Shown here one piece after another: positions 4,511 through 52,879 of a stretch of DNA of 64,000 nt; position 1 is the stretch's first letter, and each line of letters starts with the position of its first letter. The stretch is from the IMG/VR virus record IMGVR_UViG_3300028024_000077, positions 39,481 to 103,480 of that record, one strand, 5' to 3'. A program made the position numbers and the translations under genes. The notes beneath the pieces were generated by a model. The model was not told the DNA's origin, did not search any database, and saw nothing but the letters and a program-made list of their open reading frames with translations. The stretch comes from a virus.

Positions 4511-4725
4511 AGGACAAGTTCAAGACGGAGGTCTGGGCCAAGATCGCTGATCCAGCCACGATCTGCGACCGGCTGCGCGGTATCTACCGGACGCCCATCA
4601 CGGACGGCCTTGAGCTGTGCGAGGACGAGGGCTGCCCGCAGCATGGCACGCCCCATGTCTGTGTCGCCGCCCAACCGGAGCCCGACAGTATGCACGCCAC
4701 TGGCTACGAGGAGGCAGGCGTATGA
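4507..4725 (+). CDS. Small phage protein with Cys/His cluster (72 aa)
   Basis: Coupled to both neighbours by ATGA overlaps. The C-terminal half contains CEDEGCPQHGTPHVC, a possible metal site. Function unknown. Confidence 0.65.
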   Translation: MKDKFKTEVWAKIADPATICDRLRGIYRTPITDGLELCEDEGCPQHGTPHVCVAAQPEPDSMHATGYEEAGV

Positions 4726-4874
4726 GCAAGATCCAACTCGATCTGGCATGGGGTTCCCGCAGCTTCAATCTAGGCATGCTCGCCGGCTTCGCCTGGGCCG
4801 TGGCGTGCCTCATTGGCTCGATTTATTGGGCCTTCCACCTGGCGCATCTGACCTTCTGTTCGGTGGCACCATGA
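4722..4874 (+). CDS. Small single-pass membrane protein (50 aa)
   Basis: ATGA overlap fixes the start at 4722. Residues about 17-43 (GMLAGFAWAVACLIGSIYWA and following) form a probable transmembrane helix with aromatic edges. Function unknown. Confidence 0.65.
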   Translation: MSKIQLDLAWGSRSFNLGMLAGFAWAVACLIGSIYWAFHLAHLTFCSVAP

Positions 4875-5185
4875 AGATTAAAGGCTCAGAACTGATCGAA
4901 TTCATGGTCGCCGGCTGGCCCCAGCCGGAAGAGAACTGGTATTGGGATCACCAGCTTTTCGAGGAGCCGGAGCCCGACCAGACCTACGACACCGATGAAA
5001 TCGGCCCTATCTTCCACCAGGGCATGAGCCCCGACCCCACCAACGGCGACGGCTACGACCTTGCCAAGCTGATCCGTGCATGGCGCAAGGCGCGAGATTA
5101 CGACGTGCTAACCATCACCGTGCTAAAGGCCAAGACCGAGGCGGTCAAAGCGGCGATTGTAGCTCTAGGCGTCAGGGTGACTTGA
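4871..5185 (+). CDS. Small phage protein, unknown function (104 aa)
   Basis: The start at ATG 4871 overlaps the previous stop; the frame is open upstream, but that part overlaps two other genes. Acidic and Trp/Pro-rich N-terminal half (WPQPEENWYWDHQLFEEPE), helical C-terminal half. No family recognised. Confidence 0.65.
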   Translation: MKIKGSELIEFMVAGWPQPEENWYWDHQLFEEPEPDQTYDTDEIGPIFHQGMSPDPTNGDGYDLAKLIRAWRKARDYDVLTITVLKAKTEAVKAAIVALGVRVT

Positions 5186-5652
5186 TGAAACGTCTTCGTA
5201 AGATCTACATGGCCGATATGACCTGCCTGGGGTGCGGGAAGGGCTGGTATGAGGGCTACATGCCGCCTGTCAACGGCGTCCCCACCAATAAGACCCTCCC
5301 CTGCAACGTCTGCGGCCACCAAACGACCGCCGTGATGACCCCCAAAGCCTTCGATCGGGCGGTAGAAGCGCGCAACGTCAAAATGACAAGGGAGATGTCA
5401 TCAAGGAGCGTCGAGCAACTCAAGAAGGCGCTGGGCGAACACTTCCATCAATTGGCCGTGGAAAACCCCAAGGACGGGATCGATCACTTCATCAACGAGC
5501 GCCTTGAGCTGTTCGCCAAGACCCGCACCGGCAGTGGCTGGGATGCGATCCAGACCGTGCACAAGCTGAAGGAGCTGGCGAAGCTCTCACATGACGAGAG
5601 GCGCCTGCATGCCGAAGTTACCATGAGATCTTTGGGGATGACGTGGAAATAG
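5185..5652 (+). CDS. Zinc-ribbon phage protein with helical tail (155 aa)
   Basis: TGATG overlap sets the start. Residues 14-46 hold CLGC and CNVC, a likely four-cysteine zinc ribbon, followed by long charged helices. Possibly a nucleic-acid- or RNA-polymerase-binding factor, by analogy with other small phage zinc proteins. It is the last gene of the operon begun at 1042. Confidence 0.7.
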   Translation: MKRLRKIYMADMTCLGCGKGWYEGYMPPVNGVPTNKTLPCNVCGHQTTAVMTPKAFDRAVEARNVKMTREMSSRSVEQLKKALGEHFHQLAVENPKDGIDHFINERLELFAKTRTGSGWDAIQTVHKLKELAKLSHDERRLHAEVTMRSLGMTWK

Positions 5653-5737
5653 GCCCGGCATTTGTTCCTTCCAAAACGAGTGACTAGCGCGCCGCCAATG
5701 GCTATAAAGTCCTGACAGACACTTTTTGGGGGAAGTC

Positions 5738-5959
5738 ATGAGCCGTAGGGAAAACGAAAAGCGAAACCATATCTTGGCCCAGCAGATCAAGCTGGCCAAG
5801 GCCAGAAGAGACCATGCGGCGGTCCTGGATCTGCTCAAACGAGGCAGCGCCGGTATCACCAAGAAGGACGCCGAAGCCTTGGCCGAACACGTCAAGCATC
5901 GAGAGCGCCAACTGAGAGAAGCGGAGACCGAGCTGGAGGAATTTCTAGCCAAGCGCTAG
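5738..5959 (+). CDS. Small coiled-coil phage protein (73 aa)
   Basis: GGGGGAAG ribosome site before ATG 5738. Almost entirely charged helix (EALAEHVKHRERQLREAETE), so a coiled-coil dimer is likely. Function unknown. Confidence 0.6.
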   Translation: MSRRENEKRNHILAQQIKLAKARRDHAAVLDLLKRGSAGITKKDAEALAEHVKHRERQLREAETELEEFLAKR

Positions 5960-6009
5960 ATGTCACATCACCCCTATGTCGTGACATTTCTGGACGCATG
6001 CGACGCGAT

Positions 6010-6110
6010 TTTAAGCCCGTACAAGCCGTCTGGAGCAAACAAGCGCCGTTCTGACGGTCTAAACCTCCAAGCCGTCTAGCAAGCTCTAAAACGCGTCTGA
6101 AACGCTATCC
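6010..6110. repeat. Cluster of GCCGTCT/CTCTA-type short repeats
   Basis: Within 100 non-coding bases there are two GCCGTCT copies, plus GCGCCGTTCT, GACGGTCTA, GCTCTAAAACGCGTC and related fragments. The same words occur in the dyad at 201-260, near 6642, at 9383-9437 and at 21150-21240. They look like degenerate binding sites. Function unknown. Confidence 0.45.
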
Positions 6111-6115
6111 AAAAC

Positions 6116-6331
6116 ATGATGCAAGCAGCAAACGACAACCCCGGCCTAGAAACCCAGATCGCCCTCGGGAAAGCATATCGAGAAGGCGTAGAAGCCGGCG
6201 CAGCCTGGTGTCAGGATCTCAAGAAAGAGCCTCCTCAAAACCCGTATCCTCCCGGAGAGCTAAACGACCGCTGGGAGGCTGGATACGTAGACGCGCTAGA
6301 CGATTGGCATCACGCGCAATACGCTGACTAG
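6116..6331 (+). CDS. Small acidic phage protein (71 aa)
   Basis: The start is ATG 6116 or 6119, with no clear ribosome site. Composition is acidic with many aromatic residues (RWEAGYVDALDDWHHAQYAD). No family recognised. Confidence 0.5.
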   Translation: MMQAANDNPGLETQIALGKAYREGVEAGAAWCQDLKKEPPQNPYPPGELNDRWEAGYVDALDDWHHAQYAD

Positions 6332-6353
6332 AGCCAACACAAGGGGGAAGAAA

Positions 6354-6614
6354 GTGCAGAAAACCGCCATATACGCAGCAATTATCCTTGGGATCGCCAT
6401 AATCCTTCATGGGGGCATCTATAGCTTCAACATGATGACGACCCAATGGGCGGTCGGCTACAGGCTCAATAAGTTCACAGGACAGATGGCTCTTTGCAGT
6501 CCATCCAACTGCCGTTCGATAGAGGACGTGTCAGTCGGTAGTCCTCAGCTCAATACAAATGACTTAAAGCCCATGACAAAGGAAGAGGCAGAGAAGTTTC
6601 TTGATAAACCATAG
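6354..6614 (+). CDS. Membrane-anchored small phage protein (86 aa)
   Basis: GTG start after GGGGGAAG. Residues 5-26 (AIYAAIILGIAIILHGGIYS) are a membrane anchor or uncleaved signal; the rest is polar, with two cysteines (CSPSNC). Probably exported or periplasmic. Possible roles such as superinfection exclusion or Rz-like lysis are speculation. Confidence 0.6.
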   Translation: MQKTAIYAAIILGIAIILHGGIYSFNMMTTQWAVGYRLNKFTGQMALCSPSNCRSIEDVSVGSPQLNTNDLKPMTKEEAEKFLDKP

Positions 6615-6959
6615 AGGCATAGAGTGTTGGAGAGTGAACGTAGAGCGTTAGACGTTGGGTGTTTAGGGTTAGGGGTTAGGGAGTGGGTGTTTGGAGAGTT
6701 TCTCTATAAGAAATTCCGAATGCGATGCTGACCCAGTAAAAATCACTCCTCCAAACCAGGCCCGCCAAGGCCGTGGCAGGAGTCCTGCCCTATCAGGCCA
6801 CCTACCAACAGCCAACACTCCCACACCAAAACGTCCCTCATTCCACGCGTCTCTGGCAAAATATCAGGCCAGTTAACTCCCAAATTTCAACCCCAGTAAA
6901 CAAACATTAACGTCTCTCTTGTGCAGCGATGACGCACACAATTGACGGAGAGACGAGCG
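6615..6959. other. Non-coding stretch with G-rich tract and 5' leader hairpin
   Basis: No convincing gene. It holds a G-rich tract with five runs of three or more G (6657-6687) containing TTAGGG-like repeats, then a C-rich stretch, then a hairpin that covers the ribosome site of the gene at 6960. Confidence 0.5.
6912..6954 (+). promoter_or_regulatory. 5' leader hairpin that sequesters the ribosome site
   Basis: GTCTCTC (6912-6918) pairs with GAGAGAC (6948-6954), which is part of the GGAGAG ribosome site for the ATG at 6960. An inner TTGTGC/GCACACAA pairing strengthens the stem. Folding would block translation initiation, as in RNA thermometers or attenuated leaders. Confidence 0.5.
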
Positions 6960-7211
6960 ATGACCAATCGCGTTCAGATTGTCGAGATGACGGTGGGAAA
7001 TATTCGGGCGGTTCTTGAACAGATCCAGCCCGGCTTGCGCTATCAGGTCATCGTCTATTGGGATGGGAAGATAGGGTTTCGAGGTGATCCGGTTGACTAT
7101 CAGACCGCGACCACCGCGATGACCAGGATGCTTTCCAGCTCTCTCCAGAAGCTCACGGTCGCCGAGGTAGACATGACCCGGCGAGGTGAGAAAGTGGCTC
7201 ACGCGGCATAG
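6960..7211 (+). CDS. Small phage protein, unknown function (83 aa)
   Basis: The start at 6960 is chosen because GGAGAG lies nine bases upstream; an in-frame start 18 bases earlier lies in the leader hairpin. Mixed alpha/beta (YQVIVYWDGKIGFRGDPVDY). No family recognised. Followed by a clear terminator. Confidence 0.65.
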   Translation: MTNRVQIVEMTVGNIRAVLEQIQPGLRYQVIVYWDGKIGFRGDPVDYQTATTAMTRMLSSSLQKLTVAEVDMTRRGEKVAHAA

Positions 7212-7233
7212 AGTAGCTCCGAACACCCAACTT

Positions 7234-7271
7234 GCCCTGGCGGCTTCCCAATGCTGCCAGGGCATCTTTTT
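7234..7271 (+). terminator. Rho-independent terminator
   Basis: GCCCTGGC (7234-7241) pairs with GCCAGGGC (7256-7263), followed by ATCTTTTT. It ends the transcript of the gene at 6960. Confidence 0.8.
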
Positions 7272-7290
7272 GGTTGCCGTCTATCCGATG

Positions 7291-7471
7291 CCATGGCGAT
7301 CCCTATCAGCCCCGGCCCGGCCAATCCTAGCCATGGGCTTTCCATGGGGAATGAATGGCTGGAAATCCAGACTATTACGAGCCGCCATGGCTCTATCCAT
7401 GGCGCTGCCTATACAGACTTCCATGGCAGATCCTTGGGCCAACCAAGGCGCCCAGCCATGGATTGCCATGG
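7291..7471. repeat. Dense cluster of CCATGG palindromes (8 copies)
   Basis: CCATGG occurs at 7291, 7331, 7342, 7385, 7397, 7431, 7456 and 7466 within 181 bases of non-coding DNA. A given 6-mer is expected about once per 4 kb. Smaller groups lie at 9232-9251 and 9731-9780. No gene is credible here. Function unknown. Confidence 0.65.
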
Positions 7472-7480
7472 TCTTGGCAA

Positions 7481-7496
7481 AAGTAAGCGCCAGCTT
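7481..7496 (+). promoter_or_regulatory. Operator-like site (N8, one mismatch)
   Basis: AAGT-aagcgcca-GCTT followed by ATT, upstream of the gene at 7583. Confidence 0.45.
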
Positions 7497-7582
7497 ATTA
7501 CCAACTTTCAATGCCACAGGGAGCTTGCGACTATCAAATCGTCAGAGGGGATCAACCCTCGACATCTAGAAGGAGCTAGACA

Positions 7583-8122
7583 ATGGATATTGCACAGTTT
7601 CAGGCGTTGATTGGCGAAACCCTCGATAAGCGCGTTGCCGCCTGTCGCGCCGAGGAAAACGAGTCCCAGGCCCGCAAGTGGGAGCGCGAGCGCGCGTTTC
7701 TGACACAGACGGCCTATGCCACCTATCTCATGGAGAGCAAGTTTGACCTCTCGCTCTTCGACACGATGGCGATCTACGTCGCCGAGAAAGTCCGCAAGAT
7801 CGTCGGCATGATGGCGGGCAAGAGCCGCGTGGACAACTATACGCCGGTGATCATTGGGAACGCCAAGGCGTGCGAGAAGAAAAAGATGGAATTCACGAGC
7901 GCGCTTCAAGAGGCATCGCTCTCGAAAGCCAAGGAGGTCGAGAACGCCCACAAGCTCCCCAAGCGCCTTTCCTGCACGGTCGGCACTGCCAACAGCCAGG
8001 CGTCGAGTTCCCGCCTTGCCATGAAGATCATGGGTATGGCTCACGAGGAAAAGGCAGAGGGTGGTGATCGCCACCTGGTCATGAATTGGGAGAGCCCGAT
8101 CCTCCAGAAGATCGCCGCCTAA
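7583..8122 (+). CDS. Phage protein of unknown function (179 aa), paralogue of 10733-11308
   Basis: The leader GGAGCTAGACA-ATG is shared with several other genes of this phage. Helical protein whose C-terminal third (NSQASSSRLAMKIMGMA, then HLVMNWESPI) lines up with the protein at 10733 (ASQASQVRRLLSDLNI, then IVLNMTHPV). Both have similar length, leader and upstream operator. No known fold was recognised. The presence of two divergent copies suggests related roles, perhaps in early takeover. Confidence 0.7.
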   Translation: MDIAQFQALIGETLDKRVAACRAEENESQARKWERERAFLTQTAYATYLMESKFDLSLFDTMAIYVAEKVRKIVGMMAGKSRVDNYTPVIIGNAKACEKKKMEFTSALQEASLSKAKEVENAHKLPKRLSCTVGTANSQASSSRLAMKIMGMAHEEKAEGGDRHLVMNWESPILQKIAA

Positions 8123-8188
8123 CGGGATAGGGGAGGGCCAAGCTCTCCCCAATTCCCACCACCAGGCGCCATGGCGTGCAGGAAAAAT

Positions 8189-8204
8189 AAGCTTCCACTT
8201 ACTT
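8189..8204 (+). promoter_or_regulatory. Operator-like site (AAGC variant)
   Basis: AAGC-ttccactt-ACTT. It has the same left-half change as the site at 22415 and can also be read with an N4 spacer. It precedes the gene at 8266. Confidence 0.5.
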
Positions 8205-8265
8205 TTTCTTTGCAACGCCAACTGGGATCTCGCATTCTGCTCTGACAATAAAAACGGAGCTAGAC

Positions 8266-8823
8266 ATGGCTAACACCCTGCATAAATTCACCCCCGAGCA
8301 ACGCGACGCCCTCCTCGCGGCTCTGCGTTACTACCAACTGGGCTGCCAGCACGATCCCGACCACCGGGGCGATGATATCGCGGATATCGCCACCAATGGC
8401 GGCGCCCATAGCGGCTTGGGCTATGATGAAATAGATGGTCTCTGTGAGGACATCAACTGCACTGGCGGGGCGCAGCTTTTGATCTCGTTGGAAGGCGGGC
8501 TCGTGTCGGCCGTCGTCTCCCGCGACCAAGCGCTCCTTGGGTTGGACGTGCTGGTGGTGGATTACGACGCAACCGCCGAGGAAACCCAGGACGTTTTCGT
8601 CCAGCAGAGCGATGGTGAAGCCCCGGATGTCTACGCGTATTGGACAGGGGTTGAACGCCAAACCATCACCATCCTTGAGGATCACGTCCAGTGCAGGTCT
8701 TGCGTCGCCGTGACGCCAAAGAGCGAAACCATCGAGGATGACGGCCACTATTACTGCCACGAATGCCATGAGGACGTGGTGAAGTTCGAAGCCTCGGAAG
8801 AGGTAAACGTCGCGGCGTCGTAA
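8266..8823 (+). CDS. Phage protein with C-terminal zinc ribbon (185 aa)
   Basis: Leader GGAGCTAGAC-ATG, as at 7583 and 10733. The N-terminal half is helical and acidic with several histidines. The C-terminal region carries CRSC and CHEC about 20 residues apart, a likely zinc ribbon. No family recognised. Under its own operator at 8189. Confidence 0.7.
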   Translation: MANTLHKFTPEQRDALLAALRYYQLGCQHDPDHRGDDIADIATNGGAHSGLGYDEIDGLCEDINCTGGAQLLISLEGGLVSAVVSRDQALLGLDVLVVDYDATAEETQDVFVQQSDGEAPDVYAYWTGVERQTITILEDHVQCRSCVAVTPKSETIEDDGHYYCHECHEDVVKFEASEEVNVAAS

Positions 8824-8910
8824 AGCCCAATGTGCAACGCCTAACATGATCAGCGATCATGATCATGTCGAAACGGAAAACGCGCTTCGGGCGCTAACGC
8901 AATACGAACA

Positions 8911-8938
8911 AAGGAGGTGACCAATGCCCGACAAGTAG
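8911..8938 (+). other. Perfect Shine-Dalgarno plus four-codon ORF (MPDK)
   Basis: AAGGAGGTGA (8911-8920), complementary to the 16S rRNA 3' end, is followed three bases later by ATG CCC GAC AAG TAG (8924-8938). Such a strong signal for a four-residue peptide suggests ribosome recruitment or stalling, or a leader peptide before the adjacent hairpin. Confidence 0.5.
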
Positions 8939-8940
8939 AC

Positions 8941-8974
8941 CCAGCGCCGGGTTACTAGCCTGGCCCGGCGCTGG
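8941..8974 (+). repeat. 11-bp perfect hairpin after the mini-ORF
   Basis: CCAGCGCCGGG (8941-8951) and CCCGGCGCTGG (8964-8974) with a 12-base loop. It starts three bases after the mini-ORF stop, so a terminating ribosome would cover its left arm. Confidence 0.7.
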
Positions 8975-9187
8975 TCCATAGTGGCCCAATCTCATGCCAC
9001 GGCCGAGGGCCTGATTTAAGGCGCACAATGCGCTTAGGGAAAGCATCGAATAATTATCGGACATATGAGCCGGTCTAAGAGCTATCCCAACTGATCCCGT
9101 AAGGGCGCCAGGAAGCAATGGCGTAAACTATGCGAGCGGCTGCCGGCTGAATGGCGCGCGACGGTTGGCGTTATGAAACCGGGACTT

Positions 9188-9216
9188 AAAGGCGGGGCAT
9201 TGATCCCGCCTTTCTC
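9188..9216 (+). terminator. Rho-independent terminator
   Basis: AAAGGCGGG (9188-9196) pairs with CCCGCCTTT (9205-9213), followed by CTCC. It ends the possible RNA from about 8900, since no ordinary gene precedes it. Confidence 0.75.
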
Positions 9217-9382
9217 CTGACATGATCAATTCCATGGAGTCCAGTCCATGGAGGCCAGGCCATAGTCCATGAAGTCCAGGCCAGGGGCACAAGCGAGCTG
9301 AGAAACACTCATTGCAATGATCATCTTGGAACGCACGCGGTAGACGTGATTTTAGCGCGCTCTGAGCCGTTTCCAAGATCGA

Positions 9383-9414
9383 GCCGTCTCTCTGACGCTT
9401 GAACGAGAGACGGC
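9383..9414. repeat. Inverted repeat GCCGTCTCT / AGAGACGGC
   Basis: Nine-bp perfect arms (9383-9391 and 9406-9414) with a 14-base spacer, at the left edge of cassette copy B. It is the counterpart of the dyad before copy A. Confidence 0.55.
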
Positions 9415-9519
9415 GCTCTAGCGCGCTTAAAAACGGCTTTCCACAAACGGATCGGAGAAGAGAGTAGGGGAGAGATCCCCTATTTGTATCCCCTACGATC
9501 GCTCGTCACTGTGATCTCA
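9408..9519 (+). repeat. Duplicated leader cassette, copy B
   Basis: AGACGGCGCTCTAG plus TTAAAAACGGC (9408-9437) and CGTCACTGTGATCTCA (9504-9519), with the same 96-base spacing as copy A. It lies upstream of the micro-protein gene at 9551. Confidence 0.6.
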
Positions 9520-9550
9520 CGAGAGAGACACACAACAAGGGGTCAACAAC

Positions 9551-9649
9551 ATGGGGAAGATCAAGAATGCAGTGAGTAACGGCATCTATGGCACGGCCGG
9601 CGCGGTGGCAGCTTTCATAACTCTTTTCTGCCTGTTCTCACCCACCTGA
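9551..9649 (+). CDS. Candidate 32-residue membrane micro-protein
   Basis: The peptide starts MGKIKNAVSNGIYG and ends AAFITLFCLFSPT: a basic amphipathic N-terminus and one membrane segment. It follows cassette copy B and is followed by a good terminator at 9683, so it is probably a dedicated small transcript. Function unknown; a small membrane toxin or exclusion peptide is possible. Confidence 0.5.
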   Translation: MGKIKNAVSNGIYGTAGAVAAFITLFCLFSPT

Positions 9650-9682
9650 ATTTCAGCAGCCAGATAAGCGCGGCCCAACTTG

Positions 9683-9717
9683 ACCCCGGATGGTGAAAGC
9701 CCTCCGGGGTTTTCTTT
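9683..9717 (+). terminator. Rho-independent terminator
   Basis: ACCCCGGA (9683-9690) pairs with TCCGGGGT (9703-9710), followed by TTTCTTT. It ends the micro-protein transcript. Confidence 0.8.
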
Positions 9718-9960
9718 GGTTGGGCGTGATCCATGGACGCGCCATGGAATGGGTTTGGATCTGCCATGGGTGCGCCATGGTGAATGGCTTGAAATGCAGA
9801 TTGGTTTGGGTAAGGCCCTGGCCCTGTATATGGCTCGATCCGCAGACTAGGAGGTTTTCGTTGGCTCCCGCCATGGGAGGGGTGTGGCATCCATGCCAGG
9901 GGTGTGGTTGGCCCGCCACATGGCGGAAAAGTCACAGGTGGAAAAGTTGCGTGGATCAAC

Positions 9961-10016
9961 GTTGGCACGCAAGAAAATTGGAATGCCAACGTGGGAATTC
10001 CAACTTTCTTTCGCGT
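9961..10016. repeat. Mutually exclusive hairpins
   Basis: GTTGGC (9961-9966) can pair with GCCAAC (9985-9990). Alternatively CGCAAGAAAATTGGAAT (9968-9984) pairs imperfectly with ATTCCAACTTTCTTTCG further right (to about 10014). The two folds compete. It may terminate the leftward operon 10511-10141 or act as a switch. Confidence 0.4.
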
Positions 10017-10123
10017 CAATTCCATGGCGGATGCGGATCATCCTCACCAGCCAAGCCGTGTCCGCCCCGCCACACACCGCCGAGCCATGCGAAAGCGCGA
10101 CGCCTTCCGACGCCGCGCTCAAT

Positions 10124-10139
10124 AAGTCACGCCTGACTT
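10124..10139. promoter_or_regulatory. Best-conserved operator-like palindrome
   Basis: The arms AATAAGTCA and TGACTTATT are perfectly complementary across four bases (10121-10142). It directly adjoins the stop codon of the leftward gene ending at 10141, as at many other sites of this family. Confidence 0.75.
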
Positions 10140-10140
10140 A

Positions 10141-10353
10141 TTAATTCGTCGCCAAGCGACGCAAGCGCGCTTTGTGTTCTGCGCGCCGTTCCTTGTCGCG
10201 CATCCGCTCCCGCTGCCGAGCACGCTTTGCGTTGCGTCGCTGGCGCGCGCTTGTCACGTTGTTCCGATCCTCAAGCGCGACGATGAAAAGCGCCGCGACG
10301 ACAAGAGCGAGACAAGCCCCAGCCAGCAAAGCCTGAATTTCCCCAGCGCTCAT
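10141..10353 (-). CDS. Small membrane protein with basic tail (70 aa)
   Basis: ATG overlaps the stop of the preceding leftward gene (TAATG). Residues 4-26 (GEIQALLAGACLALVVAALF and following) form one membrane helix; the remaining 40 residues are extremely Arg/Lys-rich. It could tether nucleic acid or a partner at the membrane. Function unknown. Its stop abuts the operator at 10124. Confidence 0.65.
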   Translation of the reverse strand: MSAGEIQALLAGACLALVVAALFIVALEDRNNVTSARQRRNAKRARQRERMRDKERRAEHKARLRRLATN

Positions 10354-10511
10354 TATTCGTCACTCCCGTTCTCAAACTTAACGGCTAGTTCCGTCAATTC
10401 CGTTTCGAAAGTATCGCCGTCAAGATCAGCGAAGTCCGCGTAAACCCGAGCCCGCTCCTTCAATTGACGAGCGCGCTTGCGCTGCAATGTCGTTTCTTTG
10501 TTTTCGCTCAT
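10353..10511 (-). CDS. Small charged phage protein (52 aa)
   Basis: Begins MSENKETTLQRKRARQLKER and ends VKFENGSDE. The start has the shared GGAGCTAGACAA-ATG leader on the minus strand. Basic N-terminal helix, acidic C-terminus. First gene of a two-gene leftward operon facing the rightward gene at 10733. Function unknown; a Cro-like or antirepressor role is only a positional guess. Confidence 0.65.
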   Translation of the reverse strand: MSENKETTLQRKRARQLKERARVYADFADLDGDTFETELTELAVKFENGSDE

Positions 10512-10534
10512 TTGTCTAGCTCCGCTTTTCATTT

Positions 10535-10555
10535 CTTACTGTTGAATTCAGTAAG
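10535..10555. promoter_or_regulatory. Dyad CTTACTG / CAGTAAG in divergent region
   Basis: Seven-bp perfect arms around TTGAATT, followed by AAGTGCTTATTT. It resembles degenerate operator half-sites and lies just upstream of the leftward gene starting at 10511. Confidence 0.4.
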
Positions 10556-10663
10556 TGCTTATTTATCTCATGACCGTTAAAACGCGTCAAATAAAAAAGC
10601 AGCAAAACAGAGAAAATAATTTTGCATCTTTTTTAAAAAAGCTGCGATTTAGCCCTTGCATCC

Positions 10664-10679
10664 AAGTAAGTGCTGACTT
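10664..10679 (+). promoter_or_regulatory. Operator-like site (N8)
   Basis: AAGT-aagtgctg-ACTT followed by ATG. Exact match, upstream of the gene at 10733 in the 221-base divergent region. Confidence 0.65.
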
Positions 10680-10732
10680 ATGTTTCTTGTGTCAGCAACG
10701 ATGCTGACTAACAAAAAAGCGGAGCTAGACAA

Positions 10733-11308
10733 ATGACCAACAATCGCGAAATTCTGAAGGCCGAAATCAGCACTGCCATTGATGCTCGCATTGCTGAAAA
10801 GAAAGCGCTTCATGAAGCCGGCGCCATCGCTGACCGCGTCTTTGACGCCAACCGCACCCACTTCACTGATCTTGCTGTGGTGCTCGCCAATGACGCTATG
10901 CTGGACACCTGCGAGCGCTTCACCCTCAACCCCGTGGTGATCGCCAAGACGCTCGCCATGAAGACCCAAGACAAAGCCATCAAGCTGATCCAGCACCTGA
11001 CCAGCGAGCGCCTTTTCTCTGATCCCTACGCGACGCCGATCATTCGCAACGCCATCCCCTTCAGCAAGCGCAACGTTGCTATGTCCAACACTGATCAGTG
11101 CGCGACGCTGTGTGAAGCTGTGGAGACCGAGAACCGCGCCAAGATGAAAGAGAAGCGCGCCTATAGCAATGCGACCGCTGCGAGCCAAGCGTCGCAGGTG
11201 CGTCGCCTGCTTTCTGATCTGAACATTGGGACGGAAACAAAGGACGGCATTGTCCTTAACATGACCCACCCTGTCGTCGTCCACTTTGTCGAAAAGAATA
11301 AGAAGTAA
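10733..11308 (+). CDS. Phage protein of unknown function (191 aa), paralogue of 7583-8122
   Basis: Leader GGAGCTAGACAA-ATG. Helical throughout; the C-terminal third aligns with the protein at 7583. No enzyme motif. Its stop (AAGTAA) lies within the N4 operator at 11303, followed by a perfect hairpin. Divergent to the leftward pair 10511-10141, so this may be a regulatory switch region. Confidence 0.7.
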   Translation: MTNNREILKAEISTAIDARIAEKKALHEAGAIADRVFDANRTHFTDLAVVLANDAMLDTCERFTLNPVVIAKTLAMKTQDKAIKLIQHLTSERLFSDPYATPIIRNAIPFSKRNVAMSNTDQCATLCEAVETENRAKMKEKRAYSNATAASQASQVRRLLSDLNIGTETKDGIVLNMTHPVVVHFVEKNKK

Positions 11309-11314
11309 GGACTT
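11303..11314 (+). promoter_or_regulatory. Operator-like site (N4) containing a stop codon
   Basis: AAGT-aagg-ACTT, then ACCTAT. The TAA stop of the gene at 10733 is inside it. Confidence 0.5.
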
Positions 11315-11320
11315 ACCTAT

Positions 11321-11351
11321 GTGCGATGCAGCAACCAACGCTGCATCGCAC
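11321..11351 (+). terminator. 12-bp perfect hairpin, probable terminator
   Basis: GTGCGATGCAGC (11321-11332) pairs perfectly with GCTGCATCGCAC (11340-11351), with a 7-base loop. No long T-run follows. It lies directly after an operator, as at 35117 and 39684. Confidence 0.6.
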
Positions 11352-11399
11352 CAATCTTAAGAGAAGTTAAAGTCCTAGAGAAAATTCCTCGACCCGAGG

Positions 11400-11482
11400 G
11401 GGATGCCGCCTGTGTCGCCACCCCGGAACGGAAACTCCCTTATATTAGCGGCATCCCTGCCATCTTCCCCTTATATCAGCGG
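11400..11482. repeat. Inverted repeat and CCCTTATAT direct repeats
   Basis: GGGATGCCGC (11400-11409) pairs with GCGGCATCCC (11448-11457). CCCTTATATTAGCGG (11437-11451) recurs with one change at 11468-11482. Possibly binding sites; function unknown. Confidence 0.45.
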
Positions 11483-11590
11483 GCAAAACATCAAATGCAG
11501 GCGGGCGATCGGTATAACCGCTATGGTAGCAAGGCTCTTTCTTATATCGCCATCGCCGGCTAGGATTGTTGGATTAGGGGGAGAGTTCTC

Positions 11591-11980
11591 ATGGGGAAAA
11601 GTCGATTTGTTTTAACGCTCTACGGGATTGTGGCGGCGATAGCTGGCCTCACCTTCATCGCGATCGGGATATCGATGCTCGCGGGCATAGGTGTTCTCGG
11701 TCACGACATGCTTGTATGGGCGCAAACAGGCACTTGGCGTTCGATGACGATCGCCGATGGGTTTGCGGAAATCGGCCCGGTCATTCCCAACTTGCACACC
11801 GGCTGGATCGGTATAGATCAGCTGATCAATGATCAGATCGCGTTGGGCCGTCTCTGGGTCTTTTTCTTTTTCTGGCTACCCATCGGCATAAGTGCAGCCT
11901 CTCTGATGCTCGGCGCTCTCGTCAAAGATTTCGCCAAGGATATAGAGCGGAAACAACAGCGTATAGTGCGAGGTGGTTGA
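11591..11980 (+). CDS. Membrane protein, two predicted helices (129 aa)
   Basis: GGGGGAGAG ribosome site. Helices at about 9-36 (LYGIVAAIAGLTFIAIGISM and on) and 88-112 (LWVFFFFWLPIGISAASLML and on), with a polar loop between. The cytoplasmic tail is basic. No family recognised. First of a three-gene set encoding membrane proteins. Confidence 0.65.
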   Translation: MGKSRFVLTLYGIVAAIAGLTFIAIGISMLAGIGVLGHDMLVWAQTGTWRSMTIADGFAEIGPVIPNLHTGWIGIDQLINDQIALGRLWVFFFFWLPIGISAASLMLGALVKDFAKDIERKQQRIVRGG

Positions 11981-11984
11981 GCAA

Positions 11985-12182
11985 ATGGAAGTCGGCGATC
12001 AGGTCAAATACAATCCGGGCTTACAGCGTTCCGCGTTACCCGAGCGACGCAACAAGCAAGGCACTGTCATTCGCGTATGGAAATATCCCACGAATATCGT
12101 TCGCCTGAACGTGCGCTTTGGCGAGAACGATGTTGATGAGGGCGTCTCCGCGACCGAGTTCATGTCGTGGGGCGACCAATGA
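11985..12182 (+). CDS. Small beta-barrel (SH3/KOW-like) protein (65 aa)
   Basis: ATG 11985 has GAGGTGG about ten bases upstream; a GTG at 11973 is an alternative. GDQVKYNPGL and NKQGTVIRVWKYPTNIVRL resemble a small SH3-like barrel of the kind that binds RNA or protein. Overlaps the next gene. The family is a guess from pattern. Confidence 0.55.
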   Translation: MEVGDQVKYNPGLQRSALPERRNKQGTVIRVWKYPTNIVRLNVRFGENDVDEGVSATEFMSWGDQ

Positions 12183-12637
12183 TGACCGTCAAAGAGACAA
12201 AGTCGGTCGAGACGCTCCTCACTTGGCTTCAGTCAGTGACAGTTGGGCTCGTACCTCTTCTGGTCGCTCTGACCGATTTGCAGCCGCTGACCAAGATAAT
12301 CCTTGCCACCGTATGGCTCAGCTTTCATTGGACGGTGCAATTGATCGCCTGTGCCATTCAGCAAGTATATGTGACCACCTATCAGGCACAGCACTACGAG
12401 CGGATCACGAGCCTAGCACTCCTCTTGAAGTTCGAGAATGAAAAGGAGGTGGGAGAGCAAATGGCGAAGAACGCTAAAACGCAGAAGTTCCAGGACATAG
12501 CCGATCTGACCGACCCGACGCCGTTCTATTTCGCGGTCTACCAGTGCGCCATCTACTTGGTGTTTGCGGTGTTGTTCTTCCTGATCATGGCCTATAGCCA
12601 CGAGATCCTCTTATACCTGCGCGGAACGGAGGGGTGA
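12179..12637 (+). CDS. Membrane protein, about three helices (152 aa)
   Basis: ATGATGA overlap sets the start at 12179 or 12182. Hydrophobic segments near residues 18-35, 39-62 and 122-144, with a charged cytoplasmic loop (FENEKEVGEQMAKNAKTQKF). No family recognised; possibly superinfection exclusion. Confidence 0.6.
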   Translation: MMTVKETKSVETLLTWLQSVTVGLVPLLVALTDLQPLTKIILATVWLSFHWTVQLIACAIQQVYVTTYQAQHYERITSLALLLKFENEKEVGEQMAKNAKTQKFQDIADLTDPTPFYFAVYQCAIYLVFAVLFFLIMAYSHEILLYLRGTEG

Positions 12638-50167: not shown

Positions 50168-50794
50168 ATGCAGTCATTTACGGATATCGCCGATAGCGAG
50201 ACGATCCAGAACAGCCGCCAGAAGCTGCTGGATAACGACAATACGGCGCGCTCGTGCCATGCCGGCGCGTCTTTCCCCACGACCAATCTTCAGCAAGGCA
50301 TACTCTGCCTTCGGACGGATCAGAGTAAGCTCTACCAGCTCAAGTCGATAGGCCCCGATACCTGGATCTGTATCGCAGATCTGACCAAGACGCTGACCAC
50401 GAAGGAAGACTCCGACACTGCTTATCAGCCGAAGAATGTCGAGCTGACAGGCGTGGCCGCGCTCGCTGCCAATGGCACGATCGAGCGCACAGATGTCGGC
50501 ACATATGCCCCATATACGGTGACTGCGGCGGCGAAGAGCGTTTTGAGCCAGGGCACTCTTCCGCTGATGCGAACGGCGCTCGACTGCGCCAAGACGGCAC
50601 ACACCCATGTTTTTGCCGATATCACCGACAAAAAGACGGCCGATCTGCTGCCGGCCACAATCAGCGCTGCTGACGCAAGCCGCGATCTTGTCGTCAATTC
50701 GGCCGGTACGGCATACGTGGTTGGCCGACTGATCACGATTTCCCACTCGGCGCCGAGCGGCGGCAATGACGGCGATATTTGGCTGGTCTACTAA
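50168..50794 (+). CDS. Tail fibre protein (208 aa)
   Basis: FTDIADSETIQNSRQKLLDN and LTGVAALAANGTIERT, then HTHVFADITDKKTADLL, are typical of phage fibre shafts. Likely trimeric. Followed without a gap by the Gly-rich tip protein. Confidence 0.7.
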   Translation: MQSFTDIADSETIQNSRQKLLDNDNTARSCHAGASFPTTNLQQGILCLRTDQSKLYQLKSIGPDTWICIADLTKTLTTKEDSDTAYQPKNVELTGVAALAANGTIERTDVGTYAPYTVTAAAKSVLSQGTLPLMRTALDCAKTAHTHVFADITDKKTADLLPATISAADASRDLVVNSAGTAYVVGRLITISHSAPSGGNDGDIWLVY

Positions 50795-51652
50795 ATGGGC
50801 GTCCAGATCAACTCGGCGGGCACTTGGAAGAACGTCGGCCAGGCGTGGGTCAAGATGGCTGGCGTCTGGAGCCAGGTGCAATCCATGTATGCCAGGCAGA
50901 GCGGCACCTGGGTTGACGTGACACCCAAGATCACCCTGCTGATCAATGCCAACACCGTCAACTACAGCATCAAGACCGCCGCCCTCGCGACCGGCTGGGA
51001 TGGCGTGACCCCGGTTCGGGTCGAGGTGACGGTCGCTGCCGGCGTGCTGGTCTATTCGAACGACACCTCGATCGCCGCGATGCGGACGGACACCGGCTGG
51101 CCGGCCGGCAGTAAGGTCACGATCATCAACAATGGCGTGATTGTTGGTATGGGCGGCAAGGGCGGCAACGGTATGTCCGGCGCAGCGCCGCAGACCGGCT
51201 ACCCTGGCGGCCCGGCGTTGAGCATTTCGGTCGCGACCTTTCTCTATAACTACGGCACGATTGCCGGTGGCGGTGGAGGTGGCGCCGGCGGTGCTCAATT
51301 TACCCAGACGGTGAGCGGCGGCATCGATGGCACCCCGACCACCACCACCTACGGCGGCGGCGGCGGCAGCGGTGGCCGCACGGGTCTGGTTAATTCGCTT
51401 GGCGGGGCAGGCGGTAGCGGCAACTACTACGGCTATGCGGGCTATCAAGGCACCTACAGCGCAGCCGGTATCGCGCAGGTTGACGGCCAGGCGAACAACT
51501 CGCTCCATCCAGATGGCGGCGCTGGTGGCAATTGGGGGCAACCGGGCGGCAACTCGAACGTCGCCGGTGGCGCGGCAGGTAAGTGGGTTGTTGGTCTGGC
51601 AAACCTAACCATCTCGGCCAACACTGGCTCTTTGCTGGGGCCGACCGCATGA
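50795..51652 (+). CDS. Glycine-rich receptor-binding tip protein (285 aa)
   Basis: The N-terminal repeats (WKNVGQAWVKMAGVWSQVQS) attach to the fibre. The C-terminal half is dominated by Gly runs (GGGGGGAGGA, GGGGGSGG) as in poly-glycine-II adhesin tips of the gp38 kind. Variable tips of this sort set host range. ATGA overlap with the QueC-like gene. The mature N-terminus would be Gly if Met is removed. Confidence 0.75.
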   Translation: MGVQINSAGTWKNVGQAWVKMAGVWSQVQSMYARQSGTWVDVTPKITLLINANTVNYSIKTAALATGWDGVTPVRVEVTVAAGVLVYSNDTSIAAMRTDTGWPAGSKVTIINNGVIVGMGGKGGNGMSGAAPQTGYPGGPALSISVATFLYNYGTIAGGGGGGAGGAQFTQTVSGGIDGTPTTTTYGGGGGSGGRTGLVNSLGGAGGSGNYYGYAGYQGTYSAAGIAQVDGQANNSLHPDGGAGGNWGQPGGNSNVAGGAAGKWVVGLANLTISANTGSLLGPTA

Positions 51653-52233
51653 GGCATCTCATAATGCTGTCGGGCGGGCCGGATAGTGCTTTGGCGCTCA
51701 AGCTTGCTTTGACGACCACGGTAGATCCCGTCCTGGCGCTGCATGTCATTATTGCCGATAGCGGCGGCCGGCATGAGCGGGAAAGCCTAGCTTGCCAGCG
51801 GATTGTCGATTTCTGCCAGCGGACATTTCGCCCCTTTGACTATGACGTGGCGAAAATGACGCCGCAGAAGAATGGCCGCTGGGCAGACGCGCCGGTCCTC
51901 GGCGTCTTTGCCGCCATGAGCTGCCTATATCACGGCGATATCGGCAAGACCTGGCTGGGCGTGGACGATAGGGCGCGGGACGGGAAGGTTGATCAGGCGT
52001 TCCGCGACGTGCTGCGGCACACGGCGTTCCCCGGCTATTTCCCGAATGCGCGGCTACCCGAAGCGCACTATCCGCGCCCGGACGAAAACCTGACCAAGCA
52101 GCAGGTCCGCGAGCAGCTCGGCGAGGATCTATGGGTCCTGACCTGGTCCTGCCGTGCGCCGAAATTCCCTGGTCGCCCCTGCGGCGACTGCCATTCATGT
52201 AAAGCGAGGAGCGCGACTTATGCCGGCGCCTGA
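51649..52233 (+). CDS. QueC-like PP-loop ATPase (194 aa)
   Basis: SGGPDS (8-13) is the PP-loop and CRAPKFPGRPCGDCHSC (cysteines 168, 178, 181, 184) is the QueC-type zinc site. QueC makes preQ0 (7-cyano-7-deazaguanine) from CDG. The QueC motif near PxRN is not evident (KNGRWADAPVLGVFAAMSCL stands in its place). No QueD, QueE, FolE or DpdA gene is seen, so it may use host intermediates or modify another target. Squeezed between fibre tip and fibre-assembly genes. Confidence 0.75.
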   Translation: MRHLIMLSGGPDSALALKLALTTTVDPVLALHVIIADSGGRHERESLACQRIVDFCQRTFRPFDYDVAKMTPQKNGRWADAPVLGVFAAMSCLYHGDIGKTWLGVDDRARDGKVDQAFRDVLRHTAFPGYFPNARLPEAHYPRPDENLTKQQVREQLGEDLWVLTWSCRAPKFPGRPCGDCHSCKARSATYAGA

Positions 52234-52879
52234 TTTTTATGCCAACGTCAACTTCGGCCAGTGGCTGAGCGAGCCCGGCCCGCTGCCGCATATCTGGACG
52301 GCCTCGAACGGCGATCCGATCATTCTTGGCGCGCTGACCGCCAATCAGCTCGCTGGCTTGGCCTGGCGAAAGATCGAGCATCGCCATTGGCGGGAGGTCG
52401 ACCCGCTGATCGAGCAGCAGATGACGCCGGTCAAGAGCCTGGAAGGCAACCAGCCGATCCTGACCTGGGGCTACGAGTTCTTGCCGGGTGCGCGCCAGGT
52501 CATGCAGCAGCGGATTGATGAGCAGGCGGAAGCCATGCGCGCCCAACTGATTACGGCGGCGCCCGGCCAGGTCATGGAATATGACGAAGCCTACCGCCAG
52601 GCGGTGATGGCTCTGGAGCGCTATGAGGCGGGCACGCCGGTCGCCGCCGGCGACTTTCCCTTCCTGGACACGGACATCGGCGTGACGACCTATGGCGACC
52701 GCAAGTGCGAGACCATCCATGAGGTGGCCGAGGTCGTTGTCGGTGCGCGCAATCTCTGGCACACCGCCGGCGCGAAGATCCGAGGCGCCCGGTTGAAGGC
52801 GAAGCAGATGATTGCCGATGCCGCAACCGACGATGACGCATTCACGGCTTACACCCACGCATGGGACGCTCTGGCCTAA
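52220..52879 (+). CDS. Tail fibre assembly-like protein (219 aa)
   Basis: GAGGAGCG ribosome site. The N-terminal half is compact (PDFYANVNFGQWLSEPGPLP). The C-terminal half is helical (HEVAEVVVGARNLWHTAGAK), similar to C-terminal helical domains of fibre-assembly proteins. Role inferred mainly from position after fibre genes. Confidence 0.6.
   Translation: MPAPDFYANVNFGQWLSEPGPLPHIWTASNGDPIILGALTANQLAGLAWRKIEHRHWREVDPLIEQQMTPVKSLEGNQPILTWGYEFLPGARQVMQQRIDEQAEAMRAQLITAAPGQVMEYDEAYRQAVMALERYEAGTPVAAGDFPFLDTDIGVTTYGDRKCETIHEVAEVVVGARNLWHTAGAKIRGARLKAKQMIADAATDDDAFTAYTHAWDALA

Follow-up and report, generated by a model that had tools for sequence, protein, structure and literature searches.

We analyzed a 64,000-nucleotide stretch of viral DNA (hereafter the window), corresponding to bases 39,481–103,480 of the IMG/VR record IMGVR_UViG_3300028024_000077, which is 103,480 bp long. 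At 51649–52233 on the plus strand, an intact open reading frame (ORF) with an ATG start encodes a 194-amino acid QueC-like PP-loop ATPase. A first-pass annotation made from the sequence had described a PP-loop SGGPDS and a four-cysteine C-terminal site in this protein, and both are present. The PP-loop occupies residues 8–13 (51670–51687, plus strand), and the cysteines C168, C178, C181, and C184, assigned to a Zn site, lie in a stretch of the form W166-x-C-R-x-P followed by C178-x2-C-x2-C (52144–52200, plus strand). Their C(x)9CxxCxxC spacing is a variant of the C(x)8CxxCxxC arrangement of QueC. The protein matched Pfam QueC (PF06508) above the gathering score (E=1.1e-8) and, over its whole length, PHROG 1550, named ‘QueC-like’ (E=4.7e-15).

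The start of the QueC-like ORF overlaps by 4 nt the stop of the upstream gene (50795–51652, plus strand), which encodes a Gly-rich GP38-like tail-tip adhesin (Pfam GP38, E=4.8e-8; PHROG 10745, 11439, and 2056), the proposed substrate or partner of the QueC-like protein. We called a protein strictly Gly-rich when Gly accounted for at least 40% of 60 residues or for 8 of the last 30. The tip protein, in which Gly reaches 43% across 60 residues, was the only strictly Gly-rich product among the 130 genes called in the record. Its Gly-rich segment covers about residues 114–260 (51134–51574, plus strand), where the structure model had low confidence and was too poor for use. A fibre protein is encoded upstream of the tip (50168–50794, plus strand), and the 3′ end of the QueC-like ORF overlaps the start of a further gene (52220–52879, plus strand) matching PHROG 8983 and 32459, whose product may help to assemble the fibre tip.

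This cassette recurs in another phage contig, which contains our loci L020 and L040. The fibre end, the tip, the QueC-like gene, and the homologue of 52220–52879 occur there in the same order, at 34–46% identity. The C-terminal part of the fibre protein is 34% identical (E=1.3e-4), the product of 52220–52879 is 40% identical over 210 amino acids (E=2e-40), and the QueC-like proteins are 46–48% identical, with the same 4-nt overlap. Because it is conserved with the same overlap and neighbours, the window gene is not a chance ORF, and the tip and the enzyme form a co-conserved pair. The J protein, lysis genes, and PhoH of the window had no match in 15.6 kb of the L040 contig. For the J-like tail protein, the nearest known relatives were Pseudomonas nickie-like phages (36–38% identity); the annotated tail-to-lysis region of nickie contains no such QueC-like gene. 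Outside the window, the same phage has a large gene (L002 2462–4732) with matches to PHROG 1576 and to CobT-like families of cobaltochelatase.

The Pfam and PHROG labels would favor a role in preQ0 synthesis and thus 7-deazaguanine modification of DNA or tRNA. However, the window protein scored 20.4 bits against the NCBIfam QueC equivalog TIGR00364, whose cutoff is 150.3 bits. Libby et al. reported that Y35, R99, Y131, and Y189 are essential in E. coli QueC (PMC13329287); the aligned residues of the window protein are S38, V83, D111, and R169, the R99–V83 pairing being approximate and taken from our own alignment. The QueC motifs YxQxHxxE, VPxRN, and YPDC and the Y189 position are accordingly altered at S38/G40, V83, D111/K113, and R169. 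Gao et al. found that, in Cap9 and QueC, a Tyr stacks on the deazaguanine and an Asp reads the base (PMC13279940). These positions are D111 and K113 in the window protein, and the latter is Ala in L020. When all fetched loci were searched with an HMM, YPDCR was absent from every member scoring above 50 bits and present in canonical QueCs, which scored 28–46 bits.

The first-pass annotation had found neither the other preQ0 pathway genes nor DpdA, and our profile searches of the 103,480-bp record agree: PTPS/QueD, GTP cyclohydrolase I (FolE), TGT, and Radical_SAM (QueE) gave no match at E≤1, and controls were positive. In these searches DpdA was sought through the TGT model, the record is possibly incomplete, and the host may supply intermediates. 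By contrast, phages known to modify their DNA, such as StAugustine, carry the QueC-type gene inside a whole dpdA-queC-queD-queE-folE cluster. The first-pass annotation had also considered the placement odd for DNA modification, and this QueC/Cap9-like enzyme is indeed not sited for that role. With its low equivalog score and replaced essential residues, the window protein is not a preQ0 synthase; preQ0-based modification of DNA or tRNA is scarcely credible here, and we rejected the DNA-modification reading on the failed equivalog cutoff, the pathway genes not found, and the contrast with the StAugustine cluster. The automatic annotation of such genes as queuosine or DNA-modification genes is thereby corrected.

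We utilized AlphaFold2 to predict the structure of the QueC-like protein from an alignment of 25 window and locus sequences (pLDDT 85, pTM 0.85). In a Foldseek search of the PDB, the sole match at E≤0.001 was Cap9 of the Cap9-CdnD complex (9nto_B, E=5e-6, TM 0.60–0.64), which is thus the closest solved structure. Among viral models, Muddy gp16 ranked first (E=2e-10, TM 0.80–0.84). In a search with our profile A5, QueC 3bl5 (E=6e-11) slightly outscored Cap9 (E=6e-9), and sequence alone therefore does not place the family nearer to Cap9.

Cap9, the protein deazaguanylase of type IV CBASS, resembles the phage proteins in its minimal QueC fold of about 185–190 amino acids, its SGGxDS motif, and its C-terminal four-Cys site, and, like the window protein, it is encoded by a standalone gene adjoining its proposed protein partner. 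Unlike the phage family, which carries WxCRxP instead, it retains the YxDC, RN, and YxQ motifs (PMC13329287). The window protein thus shows the minimal fold of Cap9, but neither the H(x)4YxDCxxxF pocket nor Y/FxQ(x)5E, and the phage partners do not share the N-terminal MGG of the Cap9 system. Of the gene products that accompany Cap9, a CD-NTase and Cap10, the latter is TGT-like, and the TGT-family search of the record was empty; the neighbours of the window gene are fibre, tip, and lysis genes (Pfam, PHROG). QueC (TIGR00364) shares the fold family, PP-loop, and Cys site; the window protein differs from it in failing the equivalog cutoff, in the four replaced essential residues, and in having no pathway neighbours. 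QatC of the qatABCD defense system is a QueC-family enzyme in which the pair of residues recognizing deazaguanine is no longer present, and a partner protein is its presumed target (PMC13279940). It differs from the 194-amino acid, C(x)9CxxCxxC window protein in its length (about 400 amino acids or more), its N- and C-terminal extensions, and its C(x)19CGxCxxRR pattern, and it scored only 11.7 bits against the A5 profile. Hutinet et al. described in 2019 singleton QueC-like proteins in Mycobacterium phage Muddy and Escherichia phage ECML-4 and considered the Muddy protein likely to be another subfamily of N-type ATP pyrophosphatases, its neighbours and function not being given (PMC6884629). 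Muddy gp16 belongs to the phage family described here. The name of PHROG 1550 spans proteins of differing type (Vi01, SP-15, and Muddy) and is misleading for the window protein.

The first-pass annotation had called the gene a lone one. Instead, it belongs to a widespread family, of which scans of viral and genome contigs yielded about 25 distinct phage or prophage members, including Muddy gp16. PIS136, Vibrio 1.188, and Muddy-type phages were first obtained by tblastn with a permissive threshold, and the productive scans used a DNA pattern for WxCRxP-CxxCxxC and an alignment of PIS136 and Muddy. Single-sequence scans of viral contigs with the window protein (P0001), Vibrio 1.188, and VCPH proteins as queries gave no matches, a five-sequence alignment (A1) was too diverse for scanning, and a scan of plasmids gave no family match. 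Weak matches of 16–44 bits (L043–L050) were left out of the counts. The family signature consists of SGGxDS, H32, R41, E45, D80, and WxCRxP followed by CxxCxxC, all of which the window protein contains. Across 25 relatives, SGGxDS, W166, C168, C178, C181, and C184 were invariant, and R169 and P171 nearly so; the invariance of SGGxDS and the four Cys over such diverse sequences suggests selection for catalysis. The family tree was too deep and long-branched to order groups or count gains.

Many of these genes lie among structural genes. Muddy gp16 is encoded between the major tail protein and the tail assembly chaperones, Vibrio 1.188 gp63 after a DUF1983 gene, and the VCPH QueC-like gene after a pb4 tail protein. 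In Saccharomonospora phage PIS136, two genes separate the QueC-like gene from an upstream major head protein, assigned from the relative L026. Several further arrangements were observed. In PIS136 and L026, a RimK-like ATP-grasp gene directly follows the QueC-like gene (L006 12699–13448 and L026 6161–6913) near virion proteins with GEGEGE-type stretches, and its product is a second candidate tail-modifying ligase; we sought such a partner in the window record and did not find one. In L035 (IMGVR_UViG_3300025122_000440, 4519–12346), three divergent QueC-like genes are interspersed with other genes, two of which are Gly-rich and tip-like. In L037 (2283–3994) and L039 (1410–3094), three tandem 2OG-Fe(II)-oxygenase-like genes, one of them confirmed by Pfam, stand directly upstream of the QueC-like gene. 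Distant standalone QueC-like proteins without YPDC were seen in Ackermannviridae and jumbo phages (L009 9899–10561, from Vi01; L010 7998–8735; L013 7986–8984), and those of Vi01, PS119XW, and FLC6 sit in non-structural regions.

Of 22 loci, 9 had a strictly Gly-rich gene directly upstream, compared with 4 of 241 background genes (Fisher p=2e-8), as did 7 of 18 when near relatives were collapsed (p=6e-7); these p-values are only indicative, because we set the rule after seeing the pattern and used a simple ORF rule to select the upstream genes. The background comprised the 130 gene calls of the record and the annotated genes of six phages, with known partners removed. GP38-like tips stand upstream in the window, L020, and L035; in L033 and L036, the upstream product is very Gly-rich and matched no PHROG. 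Upstream major head proteins bear Gly-rich C-terminal tails in L027 (...GSGGGGENGGENGGENGGEV), L029 (...GGGSGEGEGEGEEI), and L024 (...GDGDGTPGDGVGDGV), and the Muddy partner is a major tail protein ending in ...GGGGEGEGEGE. The partner families are mutually unrelated (GP38-like tips; major head phrog_247, 10, and 29; major tail phrog_117), and a fourth head family, phrog_777, lies two genes apart from the QueC-like gene. The L027 capsid has 11 Gly in its last 25 residues, compared with 0–4 in homologues from phages without the enzyme, which stop at or soon past the conserved domain beyond which the tails extend. The capsid of PIS136 and L026 has 8, compared with 2–3 in such homologues. What the partners have in common is a segment or C-terminal tail rich in Gly. 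Since the GP38-type tips contain few acidic residues, tips and GE tails share Gly-richness and not one motif. In over half of the loci of this family, among them Vibrio 1.188, VCPH, L030, L032, and L037, no direct neighbour is strictly Gly-rich.

In L021, no Gly-rich gene neighbours the QueC-like gene, which adjoins a terminase gene. For an enzyme that serves Gly-rich virion proteins, one would expect Gly-rich tails elsewhere in this phage. Of 21 records scanned for GEGEG-coding DNA, three gave matches, namely the L021 phage with 9 that overlap, Muddy, and the phage of L036 with one stray match on the minus strand. As predicted, the L021 phage has long GEGEGE tails on both its major head protein (...GNGGEGEGEGEGEGEGE) and its major tail protein (...PPGGGEGEGEGEGEGE). 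The Muddy major head protein likewise ends in ...GGGSGEGEGESE, and GE tails are thus found on head and tail proteins alike. The same prediction failed for L028 and L072. In the reverse direction, starting from GEGEGEG proteins, no QueC-like gene was found among the 120 viral loci listed and 8 whole records. A GE tag by itself therefore does not indicate that the enzyme is present, as GEGEGEG proteins occur without a QueC-like gene. Two such records contain a structural-region protein ending in GEGEGEG (L186 3–1640 and L288 7645–9696).

On balance, we favor the reading that the product of the window gene is a phage-specific PP-loop enzyme of the QueC family that probably uses ATP to modify a virion protein covalently within its Gly-rich segment, the protein in this case being the upstream tail-tip adhesin. 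The neighbouring protein would be the substrate and its Gly-rich part the site, and the modification would affect the surface properties or stability of the virion. More tentatively, PP-loop ligases on a QueC scaffold may decorate encoded Gly-rich or Gly-Glu tags of capsids, tail tubes, and fibre tips across the family, in some phages with several proteins served by one enzyme. In QueC-type enzymes (QueC and Cap9), ATP activates a carboxylate, which an amine then attacks, and QueC performs a second round on the amide to give a nitrile (PMC13329287, PMC13279940). By analogy, the phage enzyme would use ATP to adenylate a carbonyl or carboxylate. GE tails offer carboxylates and backbone amides and no amine; in the capsid and tail partners, it would therefore be the protein tail that is activated (acyl side), the reverse of Cap9, where the protein supplies the amine. 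The Arg of WxCRxP at the position of an essential QueC Tyr, together with the loss of the base pocket, would fit a different co-substrate, and the adjoining ATP-grasp ligase of PIS136 and L026 would fit carboxylate-amine ligation on acidic tails. The acid-poor GP38-like tips would need backbone chemistry or chemistry on sparse Asp/Glu residues, which is the weakest point of this mechanism.

The first-pass annotation had raised protein modification of the fibre by analogy with type IV CBASS; in a Cap9-type version of this idea, host CDG would be joined to the N-terminal Gly of the tip. Modification of a virion protein gains from the family-wide adjacency and from Cap9 being the best structural match, but the deazaguanine group and the N-terminal Gly acceptor are not supported. 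The window tip does begin with MGVQ, and the QatB and CdnD substrates start with MGT or MGG (PMC13279940). However, the closest homologous tip, in L040, starts with MFVK, and the other partners begin with MR, ML, MS, MT, or MA, MG recurring only in L033; with partner N-termini so different, we rejected an N-terminal Gly as common acceptor. The residues that stack on and read the base (PMC13279940) have been replaced, as described above, and YPDC is lost family-wide. Because neither the Gly nor the deazaguanine pocket is conserved, N-terminal deazaguanylation is disfavored, and we regard it as very unlikely. Lower still is the chance that the Cap9-like fold serves counter-defense, as a decoy or inhibitor of QueC-type immunity (type IV CBASS, Qat): the catalytic site is intact, the location in structural operons and the Gly-rich pairing would go unexplained, and PADLOC returned only a generic QueC model.

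A metabolic moron acting on small molecules or nucleotides (amidation, tRNA), placed in a structural operon by chance or for late expression, is unlikely but the least so of the alternatives. PP-loop families act mostly on small molecules or RNA, weak similarity to TilS, ThiI, MnmA, and LarE was seen, the distant Vi01, PS119XW, and FLC6 relatives lie outside structural regions, and half of the loci have no Gly-rich neighbours. Such a role would nevertheless leave unexplained both why virion proteins that are Gly-rich but unrelated recur as partners and why two phages have the tails on capsid and tail proteins alike. GP38-like tips need assembly factors, and the PP-loop fold could aid folding or attachment of the Gly-rich tip with no covalent change, consistent with a gene directly after the tip and before the co-conserved 52220–52879. 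We consider this chaperone-like or structural role distinctly improbable, as the catalytic SGGxDS and Cys are invariant and the gene also adjoins genes for capsids and tail tubes, the homologues of which have no neighbour of this kind.

Our literature search, with subscription papers mostly outside its scope, returned no phage QueC with a role in capsid, tail, or protein modification. To our knowledge, QueC-family enzymes acting on proteins have so far come only from bacterial immunity (Cap9, and QatC as a proposed case). That the Muddy protein probably forms a separate subfamily had already been suggested (PMC6884629); what we newly propose is a QueC-scaffold enzyme for phage virion proteins. 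The family takes in a phage in therapeutic use, as Muddy has been used in the treatment of Mycobacterium abscessus infections. Overall, the family context suggests that these viruses carry out a chemical modification, not yet described, on the proteins of their own particles. If this is true, the phage branch would represent an unrecognized post-translational chemistry on virions, with possible effects on adsorption, stability, and immune recognition.
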